Source of the DNA: a virus
Direction: 5' to 3' (one strand)
Virus record (IMG/VR): IMGVR_UViG_3300007344_000219
Location: 1 to 25,029 of that record
DNA: 25,029 nt
Shown here: positions 1,938-24,958 of the stretch, one piece after another
Layout: each line of letters begins with the position of its first letter
Position numbering within the stretch: the stretch's first letter is position 1
Notes under the pieces: generated by a model
What the model was told of the DNA's origin: nothing
Seen by the model: the letters and a program-made list of their open reading frames with translations, nothing else
The model's database searches: none
Position numbers and translations under genes: made by a program

Positions 1938-2300
1938 ATGAAATCAATAAAACAAATAATTAGAGAAGAAATCAACGATTTTGATTGGACATCAGAGATT
2001 AAACCGATGAAACCTGAAATGGAATGGTTAAAATCTAATTTTGATAACCTTAAACCAATTGTTAAAGGTATTAGAACCTATTATGTTGATAACGAAAGAA
2101 AACCACTTTTTTATTATCAGAATGAAGAAAATGGGGATGTTTACATAAATTATGGTAGAATTTGGTCGGTTTTAAAAAAGGATTTTGGTCTTAATCGTAC
2201 TGAAATTCAGGAACTTATAAAGAGGTGGTTGGAAGAGACCTATAATTTAATGGGACTTACACCGAACAAGTTAAAAATGCTCTTTCTTCCTTTGTTGTAA
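1938..2300 (+). CDS. Small NDFDW-motif protein with capsid-targeting-like leader
   Basis: The 120-residue protein begins MKSIKQIIRE, ten residues ending in I-R-E, then EINDFDWTSEI. The T4 internal-protein capsid-targeting leader (MKTYQEFIAE) is also ten residues ending in I-x-E and is removed by gp21, so I infer head targeting and cleavage after E10. The NDFDW segment is nearly the same, in protein and DNA, as the start of the 848-aa lysozyme polyprotein at 20554, and the length matches one module of that protein. The rest (about 20-105) has a YYVDNE and YYQNEENGDVYINYG region and a helical end with RWLEETYNLMGLTP. Its 3' end lies in a short tandem duplication with a stop codon in the junction, so the C-terminus may be truncated. 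Molecular function unknown. Confidence 0.8.
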   Translation: MKSIKQIIREEINDFDWTSEIKPMKPEMEWLKSNFDNLKPIVKGIRTYYVDNERKPLFYYQNEENGDVYINYGRIWSVLKKDFGLNRTEIQELIKRWLEETYNLMGLTPNKLKMLFLPLL

Positions 2301-10850: not shown

Positions 10851-11597
10851 ATGAAAATATTAAAACCAGGTGAAGAAGGAACAGGTTTTTTGGTAGAATT
10901 TGATTCGGGATATATTACACCAGAATTAACTTGTCCTGATGGGGTTTGTTCTAATAGAAATTTAATTAGAGAATTTAAGTCAGGAACTAATTTAGGTGAG
11001 AATGGTGAAATACCTGAAAAAGTTGAGATATACGCTGTATTACAAAAATGGGGTGTTGAAAATAAGAATGGTCGGGTATACCCTGAAGAAATATTAAAAA
11101 GAGAAGCTAAAAGATATCAAGAATTTATTGATATGGGAACTTCGTTGGGTGAATTAAACCACCCTGAATCATCTATTATTGATGCCGACAGAGTATCACA
11201 TAGAATCACCGAGATATGGTGGGAGGGACGAACTCTAATGGGTAAAATGGAATTAGATACAACACCAGGTTACCACAAAATGGGTGTCATATCATCTGTT
11301 GGTGATAAAGTTCTTAATATGATTAGAAAAGGTTGGACCGTTGGTATATCTTCAAGAGGTGTTGGTTCCCTTAAACAAGAAGGTGGTAAGAATATAGTAC
11401 AAGATGATTTTGAACTTATTTGTTGGGATATAGTAACATCTCCTTCTACACCGGGGTCTTGGATTTCATCAGAAAAATCAGATTTAAAACCATATACAGA
11501 ATCTACAGAAAAAAAATCTATTGAATTTGAGGAAGTTAAAAAAACTACATTAAATGAAAATAAGGTTATGGATGCCTTGAAAAAATTCTTAGATTAA
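10851..11597 (+). CDS. 21: Prohead core protease (T4 gp21-like)
   Basis: This serine protease sits in the prohead core and, in T4, cuts capsid, scaffold and internal proteins after (L/I)-x-E, then removes itself. The family core is clear: KWGVENKNGRVYPEEIL (67-83), a catalytic histidine in GELNHPE (H104), and the catalytic serine in GWTVGISSRGVGS (S167 or S168), followed by DFELICWDIVTSPSTPGSW (186-204). Length 248 against 212 in T4; the N-terminal 55 residues are extra. The C-terminal tail carries TTLNE|NK (233-238), a possible self-cleavage site. In T4 gene 22 follows directly; here a homing endonuclease, three leader genes and others intervene. Confidence 0.95.
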   Translation: MKILKPGEEGTGFLVEFDSGYITPELTCPDGVCSNRNLIREFKSGTNLGENGEIPEKVEIYAVLQKWGVENKNGRVYPEEILKREAKRYQEFIDMGTSLGELNHPESSIIDADRVSHRITEIWWEGRTLMGKMELDTTPGYHKMGVISSVGDKVLNMIRKGWTVGISSRGVGSLKQEGGKNIVQDDFELICWDIVTSPSTPGSWISSEKSDLKPYTESTEKKSIEFEEVKKTTLNENKVMDALKKFLD

Positions 11598-11614: not shown

Positions 11615-13402
11615 ATGTCCTTAAAAAGCCTTTTAGAAAATAAAAATTATAAAGCAATAGCTACGTTTCTCAAACATCACCCAGAGGAACGTAGTTTTTT
11701 ATTGCAACAAACACAACATATACCCAATAATACTGAAATAAAGAATAACGAACTGGTTTATATTATTGTTAATAACCTAACAAATAAACCAAAATGTATT
11801 TGTGGTAAAGATTTGGTATATGTTAAACCTAATGTTGGATATAAAATCACTTGTGGTGATAAAGTGTGTATTGATACCATCGCTGTTGAAAAGAGGTCTA
11901 AAACAAACAAAAAACGATATGGTGGTAAAACACCCATGAGTTCACCAAAAGTAAGAGAAAAAGTAAAACAAACAATAAAAGAAAAGTATGGTGTTGATTC
12001 TGTTTTTGATATAGATGGTGTTAAAGAAAAAACCATCAAAACCAATATTGATAAATATGGCACAGAATGGTCCTCACAATCAGAAGTTATTAAAGAAAAA
12101 TCTAAAAATAATTTATTAGATAAATGGGGTGTTGATTGCACCCAAAAATTAGATTTTGTTAAAAATAAAACAAAAAAAACTAATTTGGATAAATATGGTT
12201 CCGAAGAATTTTTTGGTGCCAAAATTAATAGGGAAAAGATTAAATCCACTTGGGATAACAAATATGGTGGCCATCCGTTAAGGTCTGATAAGGTTAAAAA
12301 TAAAATCGTTAAAACAACTCTAGAAAAATGGGGTGTTACCCATGTATCCAAAACAAAATTAGTTAAAGATAAAATATCAAAAGCCTTAACCAAAAGATGG
12401 TTAGAATTTATGTCCATCGATGATAAGAATTTTATTAGAAAAGATGAGGATGGTTATTATATTTTATTTTGTGAAGAAACTGGTAAAGAATATAAAATTA
12501 ACCCAGTTACATATAATAGAAGAAAAAGAAATGGTGAAGTAATATCTACTTACTTAAACCCTATAAATAAAAGTTATTCTAAAGGTGAAACAGAGTTGTT
12601 TGATTATATTAATTCAATATATGATGGTGAAATATTAAAAAATAATAGAGAAATCCTTGGTGGTTATGAATTAGATATTGTTATTCCTGAATTAAAATTA
12701 GCTTTTGAATATAATGGTATGTATTGGCACTCAGAAGAAAATAAACCAAAAAAGTATCATCAAAATAAATTCTTAAAATGTGAGGAAGTTGGTTATAGAT
12801 TAATACAAATATGGGAAGATGAGTGGCAAAACGAAAATAAAAAAATAAAATCTTATATTAACCATATTATTGGTAAATCGGATAAAAAAATATATGCCAG
12901 AAAATGTGATGTTAAATTAATTGAACCAAAGGAATATAAAAAATTTTGTGAATTAAATCATTTACAGGGGTATGCTAGAGCCAAACATAAAATAGGGTTA
13001 TATTATAAAGATGAGTTGGTTTCTGTAATGAGTTTTTGTACACCAAGGGTAAAATCTAAAGAAGTTATTGAATATGAGATGATTAGATTTTGTAATAAAT
13101 TAGGTTATTCTGTTATTGGTTCGGCATCAAAAATATTTAAGTTTTTCTTAGATGAAATAAAACCAAAATGTATTATAACTTATTCTGATATGGATAAATT
13201 TAATTCAAATTTATATGTAAATTTAGGTTTTCAATTTGTTGGTTTTACTGAACCTAGTTATTTTTACTATTATAACGGAGAAAGGGTGAATAGATTCAAA
13301 TTAAGGAGGTCCAATGTTATAAAAGAAAGTATAGACATTACCAAATATGTTAAAGTGTTTACGTCAGGAAATAAGAAATTTTTATGGCGCAGCATCTTTT
13401 AA
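11615..13402 (+). CDS. Free-standing homing endonuclease, Vsr-like nuclease
   Basis: The 595-residue protein has four parts. An N-terminal region holds a possible Cys pair motif (CICGKDL, 61-67, with C80 and C85). Residues about 98-262 are seven 23-residue repeats centred on YG/WG at 102, 125, 148, 171, 194, 217 and 239, each with K-rich helices; such repeats are known DNA-recognition modules in phage endonucleases. The nuclease core is ELDIVIP (D354), AFEYNGMYWHSE (E365, H372) and QIWEDEW (398-404), as in Vsr-like (EDxHD) homing endonucleases. Residues about 427-565 resemble a GNAT-like fold. It lies 17 bases after the prohead protease gene and probably targets a site in head genes of related phages. 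The C-terminal half is homologous to the minus-strand gene at 18880. Confidence 0.88.
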   Translation: MSLKSLLENKNYKAIATFLKHHPEERSFLLQQTQHIPNNTEIKNNELVYIIVNNLTNKPKCICGKDLVYVKPNVGYKITCGDKVCIDTIAVEKRSKTNKKRYGGKTPMSSPKVREKVKQTIKEKYGVDSVFDIDGVKEKTIKTNIDKYGTEWSSQSEVIKEKSKNNLLDKWGVDCTQKLDFVKNKTKKTNLDKYGSEEFFGAKINREKIKSTWDNKYGGHPLRSDKVKNKIVKTTLEKWGVTHVSKTKLVKDKISKALTKRWLEFMSIDDKNFIRKDEDGYYILFCEETGKEYKINPVTYNRRKRNGEVISTYLNPINKSYSKGETELFDYINSIYDGEILKNNREILGGYELDIVIPELKLAFEYNGMYWHSEENKPKKYHQNKFLKCEEVGYRLIQIWEDEWQNENKKIKSYINHIIGKSDKKIYARKCDVKLIEPKEYKKFCELNHLQGYARAKHKIGLYYKDELVSVMSFCTPRVKSKEVIEYEMIRFCNKLGYSVIGSASKIFKFFLDEIKPKCIITYSDMDKFNSNLYVNLGFQFVGFTEPSYFYYYNGERVNRFKLRRSNVIKESIDITKYVKVFTSGNKKFLWRSIF

Positions 13403-13485: not shown

Positions 13486-13923
13486 ATGAAAAAGAAGGTT
13501 ATTAGATTAACAGAATCCGATTTGGAAAAATTGGTTAAAAGGGTTATTAAAGAAGAGTATGATAACCATATGGAACAACCATCAATTATTGGTGATATTG
13601 AAGGTGATTTAATGGAGATGTCAAATGACGAAGCATTAGAATATTTAGAAGATATTATTCAATATTGTATGGATAAAAAACAAGAGTTAAGTTCAGAATC
13701 AACAGAAGAAGAAATAGGTGAACATACCCAAGAAGAAATGAACGATGTTTGGCGTAAATTAAATGAGTGGAATAGTGAATCTGTTTTTGAGAGAATGGAA
13801 AGAACATTTAACGAAGAATCTATGAGTGTTGAATATTTTGTAGACTCCCTACCAACCCATTTTGGTTATGATGAAGATTACCTAATATCAGTATTAAAAC
13901 AAATTAAAGAAGAAGGGATATAA
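13486..13923 (+). CDS. Leader-bearing small acidic protein 1 (putative head-internal)
   Basis: The 145-residue protein starts MKKKVIRLTESDLEKLVKRV and continues IKE|EYDN; both L-T-E at 8-10 and I-K-E at 21-23 fit the prohead protease signature. The rest is acidic and mostly helical (EEEIGEHTQEEMNDVW, MSNDEALEYLEDIIQYC) with no recognised domain. The leader is shared with the next two genes and with that at 24205, while the bodies are unrelated: the arrangement of T4-type internal proteins, whose N-terminal leader sends them into the prohead. I infer head packaging and leader removal; the body's role is unknown. No ATATTTATA lies right upstream, but ATATATTTATTA occurs around 13410-13421. Confidence 0.8.
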   Translation: MKKKVIRLTESDLEKLVKRVIKEEYDNHMEQPSIIGDIEGDLMEMSNDEALEYLEDIIQYCMDKKQELSSESTEEEIGEHTQEEMNDVWRKLNEWNSESVFERMERTFNEESMSVEYFVDSLPTHFGYDEDYLISVLKQIKEEGI

Positions 13924-13925
13924 AT

Positions 13926-14453
13926 ATGAAAAAGAAAGTTATTAGATTAACAGAATCCGATTTGGAAAAATTGGTTAAAAAAATAATCACAGAGGTTGGT
14001 GGTTATGATGACCCAAGTATTATGGGTACTCACACAGCTAAGTCAATGGAAAACTTAACAGGAGTATATGATGAGTTATCGAATATCTTACAAGGGTTGG
14101 CTAACGCTATTATGGATGATTTTTCTGTATCAGAATTAAGTGATTTCTTAAATGATGTTGTTAATGAAATAGAAATCCTAGTAGATACAATCCAAAAAAC
14201 AATTAAAGATTTTACAGAGGATGATATGATTGCTACAGCAAAAAGATTTATAAAAGAATTAAAATCATTCCAAAGAAAAATTATTGTATTAATGAATTTT
14301 TCAGATTCTATGGGTAATGAATTAGAATTTAAGGAAAGATTAAAGAATATGGTCCAAGGTTTAATTCCAATGGTTAAAGAATATGGGAAAAAACTTAGAA
14401 TAACAAATGATACATTTAGAGATAGATTCTCAAGTGGTATGGGTTTTAATTAA
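13926..14453 (+). CDS. Leader-bearing small protein 2 (putative head-internal)
   Basis: The 175-residue protein carries almost the same first 20 residues as the preceding gene, then ITE|VGG (I21, E23), a good (L/I)-x-E site. Its first 55 bases match those of the previous gene at all but one position, whereas the remainder does not align. The body is helical and amphipathic (about 40-150) without recognised motifs or membrane spans; segments such as LSDFLNDVVNEIEILVDTI suggest helical bundles. It starts 2 bases after the previous stop, so the two are in one operon. Probably packaged cargo; function unknown. Confidence 0.8.
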   Translation: MKKKVIRLTESDLEKLVKKIITEVGGYDDPSIMGTHTAKSMENLTGVYDELSNILQGLANAIMDDFSVSELSDFLNDVVNEIEILVDTIQKTIKDFTEDDMIATAKRFIKELKSFQRKIIVLMNFSDSMGNELEFKERLKNMVQGLIPMVKEYGKKLRITNDTFRDRFSSGMGFN

Positions 14454-14461
14454 AAAAAATA

Positions 14462-14917
14462 ATGAAAAAGAAAATTGTAAGATTAAACGAATCTGAATTT
14501 ATAAGATTAGTTGAAAAGGTTGTTAGAAGAGTTAATAAAAAACCTTTAAGAGAATCTAGAAATAGAAAAAGAATGATTAGAGAAAATACTAGTGATATGT
14601 ATACATTAGAATTTTATTACACGACAGGTGAGGAAGATTATGGTGATGAAGGTTATGATGATAGTGGTTATGTAGAAGGTCAATTTGTTGTAAACATACC
14701 TAAATCTATTTTTAGACAAATAACTGGTATAGATTCTATTACAGGTGATGAAGAATTTGAACCTTGTAATAGTGATGAAGGTGGGGAATTACTTGATTAC
14801 ATGTTAGATTCTTATTACAAAGGTGATTATGTGATTTCTAAAAATACTATAACAGGTAGAGATATGGAACCAGACATTGACTGTAGTTGGACACAAGGTG
14901 TGATTACAGTTAAATAA
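14462..14917 (+). CDS. Leader-bearing small protein 3 (putative head-internal)
   Basis: The 151-residue protein begins MKKKIVRLNESEFIRLVEKV, a diverged version of the leader of the two genes before it. A very basic stretch follows (about 21-40) with two further candidate sites, PLRE|S (E31) and MIRE|N (E41). The body after residue 45 is beta-rich and acidic (YTLEFYYTTGEEDYGDEGYDD, split by loops; FVVNIPKSIFRQI; EPCNSDEGGELLDY) and resembles no family I know. Length of the removable basic leader is greater than in the neighbours. A terminator follows at 14929, closing the three-gene group. Confidence 0.78.
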   Translation: MKKKIVRLNESEFIRLVEKVVRRVNKKPLRESRNRKRMIRENTSDMYTLEFYYTTGEEDYGDEGYDDSGYVEGQFVVNIPKSIFRQITGIDSITGDEEFEPCNSDEGGELLDYMLDSYYKGDYVISKNTITGRDMEPDIDCSWTQGVITVK

Positions 14918-14928
14918 CATTAAATTAG

Positions 14929-14950
14929 AAGGTCTGAGAAATCAGACCTT
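14929..14950 (+). terminator. Terminator, 9-bp stem with GAAA loop (copy 1)
   Basis: AAGGTCTGA (14929-14937) pairs perfectly with TCAGACCTT (14942-14950) around a GAAA tetraloop, followed by TTTTATTTA. It is identical over 22 bases to the hairpin at 15273-15294. Confidence 0.88.
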
Positions 14951-15016
14951 TTTTATTTACTTTATAACATATTTTATTTAATATTGAGTAAATAATTAAT
15001 TAAATAGTTTTTAGAT

Positions 15017-15250
15017 ATGAATAATGATGTAGTAAATTTTTTCCTAGTTAAAGTTGAATTTGATTCAATTAACGAACAAACAGGAAAAGCAAAGAAAATT
15101 AAAACTCAATATTTGGTTGATGCAATGACTTGTACTGAGGCTGAAGCTAGAACTCACCAATACTTAAATGGTACGGTTTTAGATTATAATATTGTATCAG
15201 CAACAAAATCCCCTATTGAGGATGTTATTAAAGTTGGGGTTCCTGCTTAA
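15017..15250 (+). CDS. DUF4494-like small protein
   Basis: The 77-residue protein has the pattern FFLVKVEFDSINEQTGK (about 8-24), then TQYLVDAMTCTEAEART (about 31-47), which is the signature I associate with DUF4494: a beta-hairpin, YLVDA, and a TEAEAR helix start. Members are small cytosolic proteins of unknown function in Bacteroidota and their phages. The gene stands alone, with identical terminator hairpins before and after it, so it forms its own transcription unit. It has no leader of the type seen in the preceding three genes. It supports a Bacteroidota host. Confidence 0.75.
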   Translation: MNNDVVNFFLVKVEFDSINEQTGKAKKIKTQYLVDAMTCTEAEARTHQYLNGTVLDYNIVSATKSPIEDVIKVGVPA

Positions 15251-15272
15251 TAACTTTAATTAAACAAAAAAA

Positions 15273-15294
15273 AAGGTCTGAGAAATCAGACCTT
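15273..15294. terminator. Terminator, 9-bp stem with GAAA loop (copy 2, bidirectional)
   Basis: Identical to copy 1 over 22 bases, but flanked by A on the left and T on the right, so it works in both directions. It ends the DUF4494-like gene on the plus strand and the metalloprotease-like gene on the minus strand, whose stop is at 15299. Confidence 0.9.
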
Positions 15295-15298
15295 TTTT

Positions 15299-15727
15299 TT
15301 AATCCCTATATTCTTCAGGTAATCCCATACCATCAGCTAATCTATCAAATAAACCTTCATGTTCCTTATCTTCAGGTAAATCAACACCAACAGCAGCATG
15401 TATTAACTCATGTGTTATAACCCATTTAAGATATTCCATATCATTTAATGCTTTTGGTTTAATTCCCATAACACCATTCTTACCATTTTTTGGGTGATTG
15501 AATCCAGCGATTTTACCATCAATAATCGAATCATCCAACTTAATATCTATTTTTGGTAAATTTAATTCTTTATTTGTTATATTAAAATAAACTTTTTTTA
15601 ATTTATTTTCGATAGCAGATTTTAATGACTTAACTTTATCAGAATCATCTTTTTCCGTTAAAAAATAACGTTTTTTAACATCTTCAGTAATAACTTTTCT
15701 TATAATATTTTTAATTTTTCTTTCCAT
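15299..15727 (-). CDS. Small HExxH metalloprotease-like protein with leader
   Basis: From the ATG at 15727 the protein is 142 residues. It starts MERKIKNIIRKVITE|D, a short basic leader ending in I-T-E at residue 15 as in the plus-strand leader genes, with a second candidate site FLTE|K (E25). The zinc-protease motif HELIHAAVG (106-114) is intact, with H123 in KEHEGLFDRLADGMG as a possible third ligand. MGIKPKALNDMEYLKWVITHELIH, read as beta-edge then active-site helix, resembles SprT/zincin-type small peptidases. An ATATTTATG lies 5 bases upstream. I infer a head-packaged peptidase, perhaps delivered with the DNA; proteolysis has not been shown and the leader role is inferred. Confidence 0.8.
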   Translation of the reverse strand: MERKIKNIIRKVITEDVKKRYFLTEKDDSDKVKSLKSAIENKLKKVYFNITNKELNLPKIDIKLDDSIIDGKIAGFNHPKNGKNGVMGIKPKALNDMEYLKWVITHELIHAAVGVDLPEDKEHEGLFDRLADGMGLPEEYRD

Positions 15728-15732
15728 ATAAC

Positions 15733-15741
15733 CATAAATAT
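15733..15741 (-). promoter_or_regulatory. ATATTTATG motif (minus strand)
   Basis: Read on the minus strand, GATATTTATGG lies 5 bases before the ATG at 15727. It is a one-base variant of the ATATTTATA motif and supports the shorter start of the metalloprotease-like gene. Confidence 0.4.
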
Positions 15742-15869
15742 CAAAAAAAATTAAATAAATCTTGTGCAAAAACCTATCTTTTTTGTTTTTAACGAATATT
15801 TATTTGAAAAAGTGTTTATTCGTGCATTTTTTTTTAAAAATAACAAATAAAAATAAAAAAACAAACAAA

Positions 15870-17105: not shown

Positions 17106-18827
17106 ATGGGATATTTATTAAAATCTGGTGAAGTTGGAAATATCGGAACTAAACACCAAAAAGCAGTTCGTGAGGCAACTGTAAACAAATGGGAATCTTT
17201 AGGATTCTTAGAAGGATTAGAAGGACACGTTAGAGAAAACATCGCTTTGTTATATGAAAACCAAGCAACAACTTTAATTAACGAAACTTCAACTGAAGGT
17301 GGAGCATCTACTGGTTCTTTTGAAACTGTAGTTTTCCCTATCGTTAGAAGAGTATTCTCTAAATTATTAGCTAATGACATCGTATCAGTACAAGCTATGA
17401 ACTTACCAATCGGTAAATTGTTCTACTTCGTACCTAAAATTTCTGATAGAGTTGATGGTAGCCACGGTGAACCAGTTGTTACAACTTGTTTAGATGCTGG
17501 ATGTTCAGGAACTACTTACCAAAACGCTGTTAAGAGTTTATACGACCAATTCTATAACGATGGTTTATTTGACCAATCAAAAGGAAAAATCACTGTTAAA
17601 TATTTAACTGGTTCTACTGTAGCATTTAATGCTGATAGTGAGTTAGTTTCTGGTGATAGTGCATTAGCTGGTGACGGTTCAAGAAGAAACCAAATCTTAA
17701 TGTTACAAGGATTTGTTGGAACAGGAGCTGGTAGATTACAAGGACCAGACGGACACGAAATGGATACTGAATCTTTCTTAGCTTCATTAGCAATTTCTAG
17801 TACTTCAGATATAGAAGACCCTAACGCTGACGTTATTATTGCAGCAAACAATCCAATTCCTTTTAGAGTTGTTACTCAAAAATACGGAAAAGGTATTGTT
17901 GATTATGGAAGTGATATTTGTGATGCTGACGGTAAAATCTATATTGATTTAGATTTAACTCACCCAGTATGTGCTAACTGTGATAACGGAACTATCGATG
18001 GTTATATCGGAGCTTCTACAGGAGCAACATTAAATGGTTTAATCGCATCTTACCACTCTTACGATGACTTAGAATTAGAATCTCAAATGGGAGAAGTTTC
18101 TTTCGAATTAGATTCTGTTACAGTATCAGTTACTGAAAGAAAATTAAGAGCTACATGGACTCCTGAATTAGCTCAAGACGTATCAGCATTCCATAACATT
18201 GATGCTGAAGCTGAATTAACAGCTTTATTGTCTGAGCAAGTTGCAGCTGAAATTGACCGTGAGATTTTAAGAGATTTAAGAAAAGGTGCAGCATGGCAAT
18301 TACGTTGGGATTACAACGGATGGAAGAGATTGTCTAACAACGCTTCTTATACACAAAAAGACTGGAATCAAACATTAATCACTGCGATTAACCAAATTTC
18401 AGCACAAATCCACAAATCTACATTAAGAGGTGGAGCTAACTTTATCGTAGTATCTTCTGAGGTATCAGCTATCTTTGATGATTTAGAATACTTCCACGTA
18501 TCTAACGCTTCTCCTGAGCAAGATAACTACAACATGGGTATTGAAAGAATTGGTTCATTATCAGGAAGATATACAGTATACCGTGACCCTTACGCACCGG
18601 CTAGTTCAGTGTTAATCGGACACAAAGGTAAATCTTTATTAGATACTGGTTATATCTACGCACCATATGTTCCTTTACAATTAACACCAACAATGTATAA
18701 CCCATTCAACTTCGTACCTGTTAAAGGTATCATGACACGTTACGCTAAGAAAATGGTTAACAACCGCTTCTACGGACAAGTTTCAGTTGATGGTTTACGT
18801 ACATTCGATATCAGAGAGTTAAGATAA
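17106..18827 (+). CDS. 23: Major capsid protein (T4 gp23-like)
   Basis: This 573-residue protein (T4 gp23: 521) forms the hexamers of the HK97-fold shell. The conserved start of the mature part is FPIVRRVFSKLLANDIVSVQAMNLPIGKLF (about 79-108, in pieces FPIVRRVF and VQAMNLPIGK), followed by the family block TPELAQDVSAFHNIDAEAEL (about 354-373) and the end pieces YTVYRDPYAP, GYIYAPYVPLQLTP and FVPVKGIMTRYAKK. The propeptide ends in TTLINE|TSTEGG: L57-I58-N59-E60, aligned with T4's cut after E65, so maturation by the gp21-like protease is likely. Codon choice favours TTC, AAC, TAC and GGA more than neighbours, consistent with very high expression. A strong terminator follows. Confidence 0.97.
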   Translation: MGYLLKSGEVGNIGTKHQKAVREATVNKWESLGFLEGLEGHVRENIALLYENQATTLINETSTEGGASTGSFETVVFPIVRRVFSKLLANDIVSVQAMNLPIGKLFYFVPKISDRVDGSHGEPVVTTCLDAGCSGTTYQNAVKSLYDQFYNDGLFDQSKGKITVKYLTGSTVAFNADSELVSGDSALAGDGSRRNQILMLQGFVGTGAGRLQGPDGHEMDTESFLASLAISSTSDIEDPNADVIIAANNPIPFRVVTQKYGKGIVDYGSDICDADGKIYIDLDLTHPVCANCDNGTIDGYIGASTGATLNGLIASYHSYDDLELESQMGEVSFELDSVTVSVTERKLRATWTPELAQDVSAFHNIDAEAELTALLSEQVAAEIDREILRDLRKGAAWQLRWDYNGWKRLSNNASYTQKDWNQTLITAINQISAQIHKSTLRGGANFIVVSSEVSAIFDDLEYFHVSNASPEQDNYNMGIERIGSLSGRYTVYRDPYAPASSVLIGHKGKSLLDTGYIYAPYVPLQLTPTMYNPFNFVPVKGIMTRYAKKMVNNRFYGQVSVDGLRTFDIRELR

Positions 18828-18879: not shown

Positions 18880-20478
18880 TTATATAACAATCTCGTATTT
18901 ATAATTACCACAATCCCAAACAACTAAATAACCAATTTCATTCATTATTTGTTTTTCGGTTTTATTAACATCATAACCCTTTTTGATTAAAATGTCTTTT
19001 CTAAAAGAATATCTATGATACCTTTTATTATCACCTTTAATATACCAATAATTAGGTTTTATTTCACCAACTAAGTTAAAACCTATTTTTGTATATAAAT
19101 TATCATTATTTAAGGTCCATCTTTTATCAGCATAAGATATAATATTCTTAGGGTTATATTCTTTAATAAAGTATTTTAATAATCTAGGTGCAATACCCAC
19201 AACATTATTAGATGCAAATCTAACCAACTCATAAGAACCTTCTTTATGTTTACTACCCAAAGAACCTCTTAATTTAGAGAAAGTCATTACAGCAACCAAT
19301 TCTTCGTTATAATAAGCACCAATAAAATATTTAGATTTATCTGTTCCTTGTATATGTGTTTTATTTAAGAAATTATTTTTTTCGTCACTACTTATTTCTT
19401 TTATAACACATTTTCTTGCATATATTTTTTTATCATCAAAACCTAATAAATGTTTTATTTTTGATTTAACAATATCTTTTTTATTTAGCCATTCATCGGA
19501 GAATATATGAACCAATTTAATCCCTTTTTTGTTCGCTAATTTTGTTTTATTAGTATGGTAATGTTTATCTTTACCCATTTTTTCTGAGTGCCAAAATAAA
19601 CCATTATATTCAAAACCGATTTGTTTATCCTCAACAAATATATCTATTTCAATCCCATCTAAACTTTTTTTATGATTCATTATTGGATTAACACCTAATG
19701 ATTTTATATAATCAAAAATCTCTTGCTGGTCTTTGGAAATGAAATTATTTTTTATTAGTGGTCTACCATCATCTAAATAACCCTTAAATTCTTCTCTTAT
19801 GTTTTTGGAATATAAGTTATCACCATATTCTTTAACATAATCATCTAATGTTATATTATGCGTCAATAAATGAGTGTTTGTTATACATCTAAATTTTTCG
19901 TTACATATTTTACATTCCACAAAATTGTTTGGGTCATCGTAGTTTATATTATCCTTTAATAACCACTTTTCTTTTGGGTAATCATTAATAAAATCATCTA
20001 TTGTTAAATAATCGTGTGAAAAAATATGTTTGGTTATTGATCCTGCTTTATTTTCAATATCTATAGTTTCCCATTCACATATTGAGCAACACCATTTTTC
20101 TTCATTTATTTTATCTATTAATTCAAAATAATCTTCATACCATAATTTACCTGTTGTTTCACTAATTCTATTTCTTATATAAGTTGATGGCAACTCTATT
20201 TGATAGTTATTCCTTATATGAGTTGTTATTGAACCAGATTTATTTAACACATCACCAAAAATTTTACCTGTTTTAACACACTTTAATGATTTATTATCGT
20301 ATCTATTGTAATCTATTGTTTTTTCGTTAAACTTTTTTTGAGCACCCCTTTTCTTAATTTCAATATTATTTTTATTTAATATATCTTTAACTTTTAACTT
20401 ACCTATGTTAAATTTCTTACAAATAACGTTTATCCCAACATTTTCTTTTGTGTATAAATATATTATTTCCTTTTCCAT
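18880..20478 (-). CDS. Homing endonuclease, zinc-finger plus Vsr-like nuclease
   Basis: The 532-residue protein begins with a helix-turn-helix-like segment (about 3-42, IIYLYTKENVG, NVICKKFNIGKLKV), then two C2H2-like zinc motifs: CSICEWETIDI with H151 and H155, and CKICNEKF (189-196) with H203 and H207, each followed by a LTIDDFI/ITLDDYV segment. The nuclease core is GIEIDIFVED (D279), GFEYNGLFWHSE (E290, H297) and HIFSDEW (324-330). Residues about 352-500 are the same GNAT-like C-terminal domain as in the gene at 11615 (KIYARKC, IQGTDKSKYFIGAYY, LVAVMTFSKLR, ISYADKRW, LYTKIGFNLVG). It lies on the strand opposite the capsid gene, directly behind it, a usual place for a free-standing homing endonuclease gene. 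Confidence 0.87.
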   Translation of the reverse strand: MEKEIIYLYTKENVGINVICKKFNIGKLKVKDILNKNNIEIKKRGAQKKFNEKTIDYNRYDNKSLKCVKTGKIFGDVLNKSGSITTHIRNNYQIELPSTYIRNRISETTGKLWYEDYFELIDKINEEKWCCSICEWETIDIENKAGSITKHIFSHDYLTIDDFINDYPKEKWLLKDNINYDDPNNFVECKICNEKFRCITNTHLLTHNITLDDYVKEYGDNLYSKNIREEFKGYLDDGRPLIKNNFISKDQQEIFDYIKSLGVNPIMNHKKSLDGIEIDIFVEDKQIGFEYNGLFWHSEKMGKDKHYHTNKTKLANKKGIKLVHIFSDEWLNKKDIVKSKIKHLLGFDDKKIYARKCVIKEISSDEKNNFLNKTHIQGTDKSKYFIGAYYNEELVAVMTFSKLRGSLGSKHKEGSYELVRFASNNVVGIAPRLLKYFIKEYNPKNIISYADKRWTLNNDNLYTKIGFNLVGEIKPNYWYIKGDNKRYHRYSFRKDILIKKGYDVNKTEKQIMNEIGYLVVWDCGNYKYEIVI

Positions 20479-20553: not shown

Positions 20554-23100
20554 ATGAATATAAAAGAAATGAATGATTTTGATTGGACATCAGATATTAA
20601 AGCTGGTGAAACTTTGGGTAATATAAAACAAAATAATTTTCGAGGATATAATGTTGGTGACAAAATAACGGTTACAGGTGGTATATATATTGAAGATTAT
20701 GATGGTGATAGAGATGGTTGGATTTGGTTAAGTAATGAACCATTTATGATTAATGATATTATCCCAAATTTGGGTAGATTCGTTCTATTAGCACTTAATG
20801 AAAAATTAATTAACAACCCTGAAAATAAACATTTCTTATTAAATGATTGGAATGAATTATATATCGGAGATTATCACCAAGATAATGATTTATTAATTTC
20901 ACGATATATTGAAAATCTAAAAGAAGATAATGATTTTGATTGGATAAATGATATTGATGATAGTAAACCACAAAAAGGAACTGCTTGGGCAATAACAGGT
21001 ATTAAGAATGAGACTGACTCTATCCAATGTCAGAAATTCTTATTTAATCTTGGTTTTGGGTGGGTTAATGATGCAAAAGAAATTATTTACACCCCAGCAA
21101 AACAATTCGGTTCTATATTTCGTGGTGACATTAAACACAAGTTATTTGGTTTAAGTTCTAAACAGGGGATAGATAGTACCATAGAAATAGCCAAAGGAGA
21201 AAGTAGACAAGACAAACTATATCATTTTGAGTGGGTTAATGGTGAAACAAAATTAAAAGATATTATTTATTTAACTGATAACATAAACGAATCCAATGAT
21301 TTTGATTGGGTTGAAGATGTTAAATACACATTAGGTCAATTAGTTGATTTAGGTGATTTATCTGTTGGGGATAAACTTATATTACGTGGTAATGTGTTTA
21401 ATAATAAGACACACCAAAGAACATACGTTGATAACTTTGAAGTTGAAATCGTTAGTAAATCTAAATATAGAGAAGGTCTAGATGGGTATGGTATGAGTTT
21501 TAGTCCTGAACGTGGAGATGTGGTTGATGCTATGGGTGGTGTTATTAACACTGAAGATATATCATTTCTAAAACAAGATAGGGATTTAGAAGTTGTTCAA
21601 CATATTAAATCTAATGATAGATTAAATGAAGATAATGATTTTGGTTGGGCTGGAAATGTATCATCTGAACCTGATTTTGATATATGGGAAAAGGTGACCA
21701 ATATAATTGATAATGAGGTATCACAAGGACCTAATTATGATTCTTGGGTTGGTTCTAACTCTTACAATGAATTAGATAATATATTAAGTAGGTATGAAAT
21801 AGATATTGATGATATGGGTGATTTTTTCACTTTCCCACCAAAAAATAAAAATGGGGTGGAGATTAACCATTACCAAATACAAGAAATATTAGATGATTTG
21901 TTATTTAATGGTTATGATGACCCAAATGATGATTATATGTTAGAATCTTATAACCCATTTGATTTTGGTTGGGCTGGAGGTGAAGTTCACTTAAAACCCG
22001 AATATGTTATTGGTAGAAGAATATGTTATAGAAAACAAAAAAATAACATTAGTTCATATAATCTGTTCAAATATAATAGATATGAACTAAAACTTAATGA
22101 TGTTAGAGAAGTAGATTGTTGGGTTATAGACCATATAGATGGGGATAATGTTGTGATAGAGATGGAAGATACTGGTGAAGATATGGATTTCAGGTACGAC
22201 AGAGTTGAACAATTACTAAATTTAGGTGTGTGGGCAATAATGAATGATGATGGTTCTATTGAAAATGATTTTGTAAACCCAAATATTAAAGAATCTATTA
22301 AATATATTAATAACGTTGTTAAAGAATTATCCATTTTAAGTGAGGATGGCAAAACCGAACCCGATATGGAATGGGATTTATCAGATAATATCAAAAAAGA
22401 TTTAGACAGGTCAAAAAAATGGGTTAAAACTGGTGAAGACGTTAAAGAATATGTTAAGGTTTTAATGGATAAGATAAAATCTTTACCAAAAGCAACAAAG
22501 AAAAAGATTATTGGTTATGCTTTATTGGGTATGGTATCTGTTAACACAATAAATAATTACATTAGTGATGTTGAAAAAGAAAAACCTACCGATACTGAAA
22601 TAATTAGGTCTAACATAAAAAAACCTGCAATAAGAAAACCAAGTTATGAATTAAAACAATTTATTAAAAGTGAAGAAAAGTTAAGATTAACAGCTTATGA
22701 AATAGGTGATGATATGGTTACAATAGGTTATGGACATGCTGAACCAACTACAAAAACAAAAATGATTCCTGGTAAAACAAAAATCACAAAAGAAAAAGCT
22801 GAAAAATTATTTGAAAAGGATATTGAGGAGGCGTCAAACGGGTTAAATAGGATATTAGATTCATGGGTAGACCAAGGTATTGATGTTGAAATAACTCAGG
22901 GTATGTACGACGCTATGACATCAATGATATTTAATATGGGTATTGGTAATTTTAGAATGTCTGATTTTATTCAAATGGTTAAACGTGGTAATTATCAACA
23001 AGCACAAGATACAATTAAAACAACCAATGTAACTTATCCTGGACATAAACCAAGAAGAGAAAAAGAATCAGAGATGTTCGGGGGATATTATAATATTTGA
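20554..23100 (+). CDS. Multi-module NDFDW polyprotein with C-terminal GH24 lysozyme
   Basis: The 848-residue protein is built of segments that each start with (L/I)-x-E and an NDFDW-type motif: IKE|M-NDFDW (E5), LKE|D-NDFDW (E124), INE|S-NDFDW (E246), LNE|D-NDFGW (E359) and a weaker MLE|S-YNPFDFGW (E464). Further sites are IKE|S (E580) and LSE|D (E597). Between them lie four or five modules of about 105-122 residues that mostly do not resemble each other; the first and third share a VGDK beta motif. Residues about 648-672 are hydrophobic. The end (about 696-848) is a T4-type lysozyme: FIKSEEKLRLTAY with catalytic E707 or E708, MVTIGYGHA, and AMTSMIFNMGIGNF. I infer head cargo split by the prohead protease, the last piece degrading peptidoglycan. 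An uncut tail lysin is the alternative. Confidence 0.88.
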   Translation: MNIKEMNDFDWTSDIKAGETLGNIKQNNFRGYNVGDKITVTGGIYIEDYDGDRDGWIWLSNEPFMINDIIPNLGRFVLLALNEKLINNPENKHFLLNDWNELYIGDYHQDNDLLISRYIENLKEDNDFDWINDIDDSKPQKGTAWAITGIKNETDSIQCQKFLFNLGFGWVNDAKEIIYTPAKQFGSIFRGDIKHKLFGLSSKQGIDSTIEIAKGESRQDKLYHFEWVNGETKLKDIIYLTDNINESNDFDWVEDVKYTLGQLVDLGDLSVGDKLILRGNVFNNKTHQRTYVDNFEVEIVSKSKYREGLDGYGMSFSPERGDVVDAMGGVINTEDISFLKQDRDLEVVQHIKSNDRLNEDNDFGWAGNVSSEPDFDIWEKVTNIIDNEVSQGPNYDSWVGSNSYNELDNILSRYEIDIDDMGDFFTFPPKNKNGVEINHYQIQEILDDLLFNGYDDPNDDYMLESYNPFDFGWAGGEVHLKPEYVIGRRICYRKQKNNISSYNLFKYNRYELKLNDVREVDCWVIDHIDGDNVVIEMEDTGEDMDFRYDRVEQLLNLGVWAIMNDDGSIENDFVNPNIKESIKYINNVVKELSILSEDGKTEPDMEWDLSDNIKKDLDRSKKWVKTGEDVKEYVKVLMDKIKSLPKATKKKIIGYALLGMVSVNTINNYISDVEKEKPTDTEIIRSNIKKPAIRKPSYELKQFIKSEEKLRLTAYEIGDDMVTIGYGHAEPTTKTKMIPGKTKITKEKAEKLFEKDIEEASNGLNRILDSWVDQGIDVEITQGMYDAMTSMIFNMGIGNFRMSDFIQMVKRGNYQQAQDTIKTTNVTYPGHKPRREKESEMFGGYYNI

Positions 23101-24081: not shown

Positions 24082-24180
24082 ATCTATTAATATTAATTCG
24101 GTTTTTAACTTTAACTCCAACAAATATATTAATTCTTTTTTAATTAAACAATATATAACCTAATTTTTTGGAAGTTAATG

Positions 24181-24189
24181 ATATTTATA
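24181..24189 (+). promoter_or_regulatory. ATATTTATA motif
   Basis: ATATTTATA in the context ATGATATTTATAAG, 15 bases before the ATG at 24205. The upstream in-frame ATG at 24178 overlaps the motif and is unlikely to be the start. Confidence 0.55.
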
Positions 24190-24204
24190 AGAAAAGAAAT
24201 TATT

Positions 24205-24621
24205 ATGAAAAAAATTATAAAATTAAAAGAATCTGATTTGGGAAGGCTGGTTAGAAGGGTTATTAAAGAAGAGGAAGAAGTTAAAAAAGAAAAATCTACT
24301 ACTTTAACTAAACACCCTGCATACCCAGCAATAGATAGATTGGAGAGGGAGTTAGAAAACTTAAAAATGGAATTTAAGGATAGTATTGCTAATGCTGTAT
24401 CGGGTGAAGATGGGTATCATAGTGAAATCGATAAATTCTCTGAAGATTTTGGTAAATTCATTACTAAAGTATCTAATTTGAAATCTAAAATAAATGATTA
24501 TCAAATAGCTAATAAAGATAAGGAAATGGCTGAGGCTAGAAAACGTAAAGAAAAACAACGTCAATATCAACACCATATGAGAGAAAAGGCTAGAAAAGAT
24601 GGTCGTAACTATTCTTATTAA
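24205..24621 (+). CDS. Leader-bearing basic protein (putative head-internal)
   Basis: From the ATG at 24205 the protein is 138 residues and begins MKKIIKLKESDLGRLVRRV, the leader type of the genes at 13486, 13926 and 14462, with IKE|EEE at 20-22. The body is a highly charged helix (about 45-105, ERELENLKMEF, SEIDKFSEDFGKFITKV) ending in a very basic tail (ARKRKEKQRQYQHHMREKARK) that could bind DNA, as many head-internal proteins do. The start is preferred over 24178 because the leader begins there and the ATATTTATA motif lies 15 bases upstream. I infer packaging with the genome; no enzymatic motif is seen. Confidence 0.8.
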   Translation: MKKIIKLKESDLGRLVRRVIKEEEEVKKEKSTTLTKHPAYPAIDRLERELENLKMEFKDSIANAVSGEDGYHSEIDKFSEDFGKFITKVSNLKSKINDYQIANKDKEMAEARKRKEKQRQYQHHMREKARKDGRNYSY

Positions 24622-24628
24622 AAACACA

Positions 24629-24958
24629 ATGAGAAGGTTTGATAAAAAAAAGAATATTTTAGAGGCTAACTTGAGGTTGGAGGAGTCTTTTATTGGATCT
24701 AAAAAACTAATTTTAGAAGATCAAAACCCTGATACTAGTTCTGATACAAAAAATATTTGTGATATAATGACGGTTAATTCATGGGATGAAATTTTAGAAT
24801 TATTAAACACTATGGATTCTGTTAAAGGTTCTGATAAAATAAAAAAAGATATAAAAAATTTGTATCAAAAAAGTAAAGAAGAATTGTCTACATTAAGTAA
24901 TGATGAGGATATTATGAATACTTATTTAAGAAAGATACAAAATGAATTGTGTAAATAA
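24629..24958 (+). CDS. Small helical protein, possible head-internal
   Basis: From the ATG at 24629 the protein is 109 residues. It begins MRRFDKKKNILEANLRLEES, with I-L-E|A at 10-13, a very T4-like prohead protease site, and further L-x-E triplets (RLEE, LILE). The body is helical and charged (SWDEILELLNTM, DKIKKDIKNLYQKSKEEL) and resembles no known family. A longer frame from 24599 would overlap the preceding gene and add ten residues that do not look like a leader. It starts 7 bases after the previous stop and is in the same operon. Confidence 0.72.
   Translation: MRRFDKKKNILEANLRLEESFIGSKKLILEDQNPDTSSDTKNICDIMTVNSWDEILELLNTMDSVKGSDKIKKDIKNLYQKSKEELSTLSNDEDIMNTYLRKIQNELCK

Follow-up and report, generated by a model that had tools for sequence, protein, structure and literature searches.

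The window analysed here is a fragment, 25,029 nucleotides (25 kb) long, from an uncultured phage (IMG/VR record IMGVR_UViG_3300007344_000219), and carries a T4-type head module made up of a terminase, a gp20-type portal, a gp21-type S77 protease, and a gp23-type capsid protein. An intact open reading frame (ORF) of 848 amino acids (aa) at positions 20554–23100 of the plus strand appears, with a probability of roughly 0.78, to encode a modular cargo polyprotein of the T4-type head, cut by the gp21-type protease. Dozens of similar genes in related uncultured phages appear to encode proteins of this design as well. The 848-aa polyprotein would be targeted into the prohead, where the serine protease would cut after (L/I)-x-E tripeptides at five to seven places, freeing a small lysozyme and approximately five proteins of 105–120 aa with x-NDFDW-(V/I)-K-D-I-x-P at their N-termini. 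These products would then travel in the mature head and enter the host together with the DNA. The splitting of the protein, proposed in an earlier reading of the bare sequence (the sequence-only reading), is supported by the enrichment of the tripeptide before the motif, the interchangeability of junctions and leaders, and the shuffling of modules among phages; cleavage, packaging, and ejection are predicted from these patterns.

Junctions and Predicted Products

The motif, as NDFDW or NDFGW, is found at residues 7, 126, 248, and 361 of the protein, and the tripeptides IKE5, LKE124, INE246, and LNE359 stand exactly one residue before it, as the sequence-only reading had described. Given a local tripeptide frequency of 1.3%, the chance of four matches at one fixed offset is p ~3e-8, or ~7e-6 when offsets of 0–3 are allowed. 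The motifs are spaced by 119, 122, and 113 residues, and a further 106 residues lead to a weak fifth copy, MLE464-SY-NPFDFGW, which has Met at P3 instead of Leu or Ile. This fifth copy, already suspected in the earlier reading, is supported by homology, in that the relative of module 4 in another phage has the canonical ITE↓S-SEFDW at this point (arrows mark predicted cuts). The end of module 5 (IKE↓S) matches the position of LKE↓SELDW in its own homologue. Ahead of the lysozyme, two further sites, IKE580 and LSE597, enclose a stretch of 17 residues, and relatives retain both sites. The protein contains 11 (L/I)-x-E tripeptides in all, and five of these (E83, E379, E444, E754, and E759) fall inside modules, which means that the tripeptide is weak by itself, and is specific only in combination with NDFDW.

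The predicted parts, all on the plus strand, begin with the minimal leader MNIKE (20554–20568), with a cut expected after Glu5; a longer leader is ruled out by an in-frame stop upstream, and this leader is similar in size to the MELITE of T4 Alt. Product 1 (residues 6–124; 20569–20925) would consist of the NDFDW tag and a module of ~105 aa between the junctions IKE5 and LKE124, and product 2 (residues 125–246; 20926–21291) has a module that recurs in other polyproteins. Product 3 (residues 247–359; 21292–21630), lying between INE246 and LNE359, has weak relatives, product 4 (residues 360–464; 21631–21945) has a relative in a 537-aa protein, and product 5 (residues 465–580; 21946–22293) has the diverged tag NPFDFGW and homologues in proteins of 421 aa and 364 aa. 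The 17-residue spacer (22294–22344) separates these from product 6 (residues 598–848; 22345–23097), the GH24 lysozyme, which has the tag-like start DGKTEPDMEW.

An AlphaFold model of module 2, built from seven sequences, has a folded core at approximately residues 143–239, and both of its junctions have a predicted local distance difference test score (pLDDT) below 50, as would be expected for exposed cut sites. A fold search with this model returned no match in the PDB or a viral library at E <= 0.001.

Enrichment of the Junction across Phages

The association of (L/I)-x-E with NDFDW is far above chance. When all the ORFs of eight motif-bearing records (the window included, together with nearly all of a 380-kb record and all of a 210-kb record) were scanned for the core [NDSEG][DE]F[DGENS]W, the tripeptide was found 0–3 residues upstream of 68 of the 95 motifs, in proteins that are partly non-independent, and mostly dissimilar. 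Random positions in the same proteins averaged 6.3 and never exceeded 16 over 2,000 draws, and internal motifs outside the window had the tripeptide upstream in 34 of 51 cases. Controls were low throughout, with 1/67 for other xxFxW sequences, 6.3% for acidic 5-mers, and 3/95 for (L/I)-x-E downstream of the motif.

A viral collection was also searched for DNA encoding NDFDW-(I/M/V)-x-D-(I/M/V), leaving the upstream residues unconstrained. The tripeptide was found just upstream in 11 of the 13 in-frame elements, and a twelfth had Met-x-E, while the thirteenth lies close to the start of its protein. The same DNA pattern, searched for in 257 Gb of bacterial and archaeal genomes, gave eight matches, four of which lay in reading frames, none of the four preceded by the tripeptide.

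The 380-kb relative encodes 21 element-bearing proteins, of which 12 have an internal junction, most of them with no family match. An assembly artefact is unlikely to be the origin of the fusions, as the same junctions recur across records from different samples (L043/L045, L041/L045, and L049).

Leaders and the NDFDW Tag

The consensus of the internal junctions is (L/I)-N-E-S-N-D-F-D-W-(V/I)-K-D-I-x-P, and an N-terminal version, M-(N/K)-I-K-K-I-I-(K/R)-E-E-x-NDFDW, stands at the head of standalone proteins. Dozens of unrelated proteins begin with this cassette. One of these, overlooked in the sequence-only reading, lies in the same window (1938–2300, plus strand): a 120-aa protein beginning MKSIKQIIRE↓EI-NDFDW, which would be a one-module form of such cargo. 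Two internal junctions of the 380-kb record retain a complete leader (SIKNIIREE-LDDFDW at residue 291 and INKILKEE-FDDFDW at residue 563), as expected after gene fusion. Judged from these sequences, the junction element is interchangeable with the N-terminal leader; the cassette would work in the same way whether it heads a standalone protein or joins two modules, and modules could therefore be gained, lost, and reordered.

The possibility that NDFDW is merely part of the protease site was rejected, given that the capsid protein and other leader-bearing proteins have (L/I)-x-E without it, and the tag thus appears dispensable for cutting. Several proteins start directly with the tag, as if already matured, and for this reason the tag probably does more than mark the cut, acting in the retention, targeting, or exit of the mature protein, for example, by binding the core, the shell, or the exit path. 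It is possible, though put forward here only tentatively, that (L/I)-x-E↓x-NDFDW(V/I)KDIxP is a general loading code across a group of uncultured T4-type phages, in which the tag would be a functional N-terminal signal for retention or exit, any gene could be added, and a dozen polyprotein genes might supply tens of injected proteins per phage. In that case, the protease of capsid maturation would be running a genuine polyprotein strategy, of the viral kind, in a double-stranded DNA phage.

Other leader types (MKKKVIRLTESDLEKLVKRVIKEE... and MRRFDKKKNILEANLRLE...) are found in the window on five small proteins that lack NDFDW (13486–13923, 13926–14453, 14462–14917, 24178–24621, and 24599–24958). 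These proteins recur in related phages, and most have (L/I)-x-E near the end of the leader, which suggests that they are probably further head cargo. A homologue of SprT-like metalloproteases (15299–15769, minus strand) also has a cargo-type leader, MERKIKNIIRKVITED, and relatives have leader-bearing ORFs at the same place as this gene.

Shuffling of the Modules

The search of related phages for the same junction with modules shuffled, lost, or gained, as suggested in the earlier reading, was clearly positive. Once the first 16 residues (the tag) were removed, five of the six modules of the window were found elsewhere, in different orders and architectures. A module of a 1,072-aa polyprotein shares 59% identity with module 2, which also recurs in diverged form in at least four further polyproteins, and module 3 has weak relatives (28–32% identity) in two other polyproteins. 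Module 4 matches, at 52% identity, the mature module that comes first in the 537-aa protein, whose chain also includes a NUDIX domain. A homologue of module 5 (34%) is the first module of the two-module 421-aa protein, which has the leader MNIRKIIKE↓EIGDFDW (L003), and another comes first in the 364-aa protein, which continues with LKE↓SELDW. With its tag removed, the standalone 120-aa protein of the window aligns over 90 aa, at 69% identity, with the module that ends a 578-aa polyprotein (L041, 6415–8148). A stretch of 129 aa shared by two polyproteins of different samples shows 89% identity; the similarity ends 18 residues past a junction, beyond which the two proteins are unrelated. No close relatives of modules 1 and 3 were found in the viral contigs searched.

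Some of the fused or leader-bearing relatives carry recognisable domains, including NUDIX, GP88, and L5 gp82, together with a nucleotidyltransferase below the Pfam cut-off. In addition, a 1,341-aa relative (L004, 3485–7507) has a related lysozyme, two GNAT domains, and many (L/I)-x-E tripeptides, with no NDFDW, and may possibly reflect this strategy in a different phage group, using a different tag. The PADLOC and PHROGs searches of the polyproteins returned no matches except the lysozyme.

These observations bear on the idea that the chain before the lysozyme serves as a core- or scaffold-like propeptide, which the protease would shred and clear from the head in the manner of the long propeptides in head proteins of SPN3US and phiKZ, with the lysozyme alone being kept. 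Giant-phage propeptides of 111–254 residues are indeed cut at several sites (PMC10052503), but the modules found here are independently conserved and also exist as standalone genes with their own leaders, and some cargo carries the domains listed above, with GNAT in the relative that lacks NDFDW, which leaves this account with little probability.

The Lysozyme Module

The lysozyme is the sole Pfam match in the 848-aa protein (PF00959, E=2.9e-21, residues 705–838, covering positions 1–125 of the 125 in the profile), and the GH24 assignment is also obtained from PHROGs. It recurs in several contexts among related phages, and all of the 23 distinct homologues, which are interrelated, have (L/I)-x-E at the lysozyme start, in comparison with 13.6% of background stretches. 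Most of these relatives are standalone proteins of ~303 aa, in which the leader ends ...VFKLSLITE↓DGKTEPDMEW, and the fusions keep a leader remnant, SEYYLNKVIKKLSLLKE, between two (L/I)-x-E sites. The 17-residue spacer of the window, which may be compared with SIKYINNVVKELSILSE, SEYYLNKVIKKLSLLKE, and the standalone leader end ...ILDDMVFKLSLITE, is thus probably the fossil of a standalone lysozyme leader. A hydrophobic stretch before the lysozyme domain (KKKIIGYALLGMVSVNTINNYI; residues ~650–675, positions 22500–22580) is conserved in homologues, and may interact with the membrane. The lysozyme itself may act in the passage of the cell wall at entry.

The Protease and Its Expected Sites

In T4, cleavage by gp21 takes place after L/I-x-E, and targeting to the head requires no more than ten residues of IPIII, a capsid-targeting sequence (CTS) (PMC9026906). 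The prohead protease proposed to process the polyprotein (Peptidase_S77, Pfam E=3.7e-27) is encoded at 10851–11597 of the window, on the plus strand, and the gp23-type major capsid protein (Pfam E=5.3e-72), with the expected maturation site TTLINE↓TSTEGG, at 17106–18827, also on the plus strand. Both had been pointed out in the sequence-only reading, together with the capsid site, which proves to be conserved: five capsid proteins have LINE↓T, LISE↓T, or LINE↓A, that is, L-I-(N/S)-E. The protease of the window has a C-terminal site of its own, TLNE↓N, just before a conserved tail, and C-terminal hydrophobic-x-E sites are found in four of the five other proteases shown (YLSE↓N, LLSE↓E, and ILNE↓D among the relatives); T4 gp21 itself is processed near its C-terminus (PMC9026906). 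The residues at the junctions thus fit the specificity expected of this protease.

The S77 protease was found in the window and in six of 14 related records, many of the remainder being fragments, and protease and capsid occur in the same genomes in the window, G001, G002, G004, and G005. The gene for the 848-aa protein comes after the capsid gene and is read in the same direction, with a probable endonuclease gene between them on the other strand, and a gene of this type also follows the capsid gene in G002. Two probable selfish endonucleases were identified in the window, one adjoining the protease gene (11615–13402, plus strand) and the other the capsid gene (18880–20478, minus strand), with C-terminal halves that are 39% identical.

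Evidence against the Polyprotein and Rival Accounts

A number of observations weigh against the interpretation as a cut cargo polyprotein. Inside modules, (L/I)-x-E occurs at about the background rate, its depletion being slight (z=-2.2), and the control motif LI..E is depleted equally (z=-2.3), so that this depletion was dropped as independent proof of cutting. The full-length AlphaFold model (mean pLDDT 53, predicted template modelling score (pTM) 0.31, and more than half of the residues of low confidence) is too poor to judge the boundaries, and the location of the junctions from residue 246 onward in low-confidence stretches proves little. No isolate carrying such a polyprotein was found in the phage collection, and there is none in the first 150 kb of the 160-kb genome of Flavobacterium phage immuto, which by its capsid protein (~42% identity) is among the closest isolates. 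Some tag-first proteins have no leader and no cut site, with in-frame stops upstream (MSNDFDW, MVYNDFEW, MIMSNDFEW, and MGDFDW), as at 1170–1490, 1483–1791, and 14004–14345 of G006 (L094/L095) and 13864–15414 of G007. Finally, the lysozyme is the only GH24 in each of two large GH24-bearing genomes, and might for this reason serve lysis instead.

The sequence-only reading held that homologues keeping NDFDW without the preceding (L/I)-x-E would refute its proposal. Such homologues do occur, largely among proteins that start with the tag, in which there is nothing to cut, and many of the other exceptions carry Met or Val at P3. Tags at native N-termini would nevertheless suit an uncut chain, in which NDFDW and the residues upstream form a repeated docking motif of an intact multidomain protein, in the virion or early in the cell. 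The strong conservation of the NDFDW core and the following (V/I)KDIxP is also compatible with docking, the virion RNA polymerase of N4 is packaged uncut (PMC5512222), and intact action has been proposed for some polyvalent proteins. This account seems unlikely, however, as it leaves unexplained the hydrophobic-x-E before the tag at most internal places, while the same residues end the removable-looking leaders of standalone proteins, and the modules exist as separate genes.

The absence of a second GH24 in the two large relatives, together with the agreement of Pfam and PHROGs on this family, could also point to an ordinary lysis endolysin with unrelated N-terminal domains fused to it, the motif series being a repeat artefact with no processing. 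This is very improbable, given the placement after the capsid gene in both the window and G002, the retention of (L/I)-x-E at the lysozyme start by every homologue, and the presence of the cassette at the head of so many unrelated proteins.

Comparison with Known Systems

The proposed cargo polyprotein resembles the internal proteins of T4 (IPI–IPIII and Alt), which have a short leader ending in (L/I)-x-E, a gp21-family protease, and a T4-type portal and capsid, and which are likewise small, diverse, non-homologous cargo of ~100 aa. Translated from the T4 record, the leaders are MKTYQEFIAE↓A in IPIII and MELITE↓L in Alt, and comparable leaders are found here in the 848-aa protein (MNIKE↓M), the 120-aa protein (MKSIKQIIRE↓E), and many relatives. 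In T4, however, there is one gene per cargo, whereas up to seven junctions occur in a single ORF among the related phages, and the conserved tag that follows the junctions here is absent from the T4 IPIII fragment and the Alt examined. The system is therefore a variant, rather than a plain member, of the T4-type internal proteins. Three of the T4 internal proteins inhibit different GmrSD restriction enzymes (PMC12373910), and, by analogy with these proteins and Alt, counter-defence and host takeover are likely roles of the cargo, alongside the possible role in wall passage.

Polyvalent proteins (Iyer et al. 2017, PMC5512222) also have several unrelated domains per chain, which are shuffled between relatives, and are thought to enter with the DNA and to be freed proteolytically; both groups include lysozyme, GNAT, and nucleotidyltransferase domains. 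In contrast, their processor is mostly a fused zincin-like peptidase or assemblin-like domain, a fused peptidase domain (MPTase or assemblin-like) being present in about a third of them (PMC5512222). A Pfam search of 19 NDFDW-type relatives found no peptidase, and that of the 848-aa protein only the lysozyme; under the present proposal, the prohead protease would act in trans on a junction cassette that recurs along the chain.

In phiKZ and SPN3US, a gp21-family protease, several x-x-E sites in one head protein, and a large ejected cargo are also found (PMC10052503, PMC9026906), although the cuts mainly remove propeptides from one mature protein, and a series of modules with separately tagged starts was not described for phages of this type in the literature searched. 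DarA and DdrB of phage P1 are similarly processed and packaged in the head, but are single processed proteins of another phage group. To our knowledge, neither has an NDFDW cassette. DarA has been implicated in countering restriction (PMC5512222).

The claim of the sequence-only reading that no phage polyprotein of this design has been described held in the literature searched, although processed multi-effector phage proteins in the broader sense have been published (PMC5512222). Two known ideas, the internal proteins of T4 and the polyvalent proteins, are combined here in a form not found described.

Implications for Phage Biology

Polyproteins are a hallmark of RNA viruses, and no account was found in the literature searched of a double-stranded DNA phage that produces separate injected proteins from a serial polyprotein by means of its capsid protease. 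If the interpretation is correct, this would be a modular natural way of loading several proteins into the phage head at a fixed ratio. The cassette would then provide a sequence signature that exposes candidates for head-delivered effectors in uncultured phages from the DNA alone, as well as a testable explanation of how such phages gather counter-defence genes.
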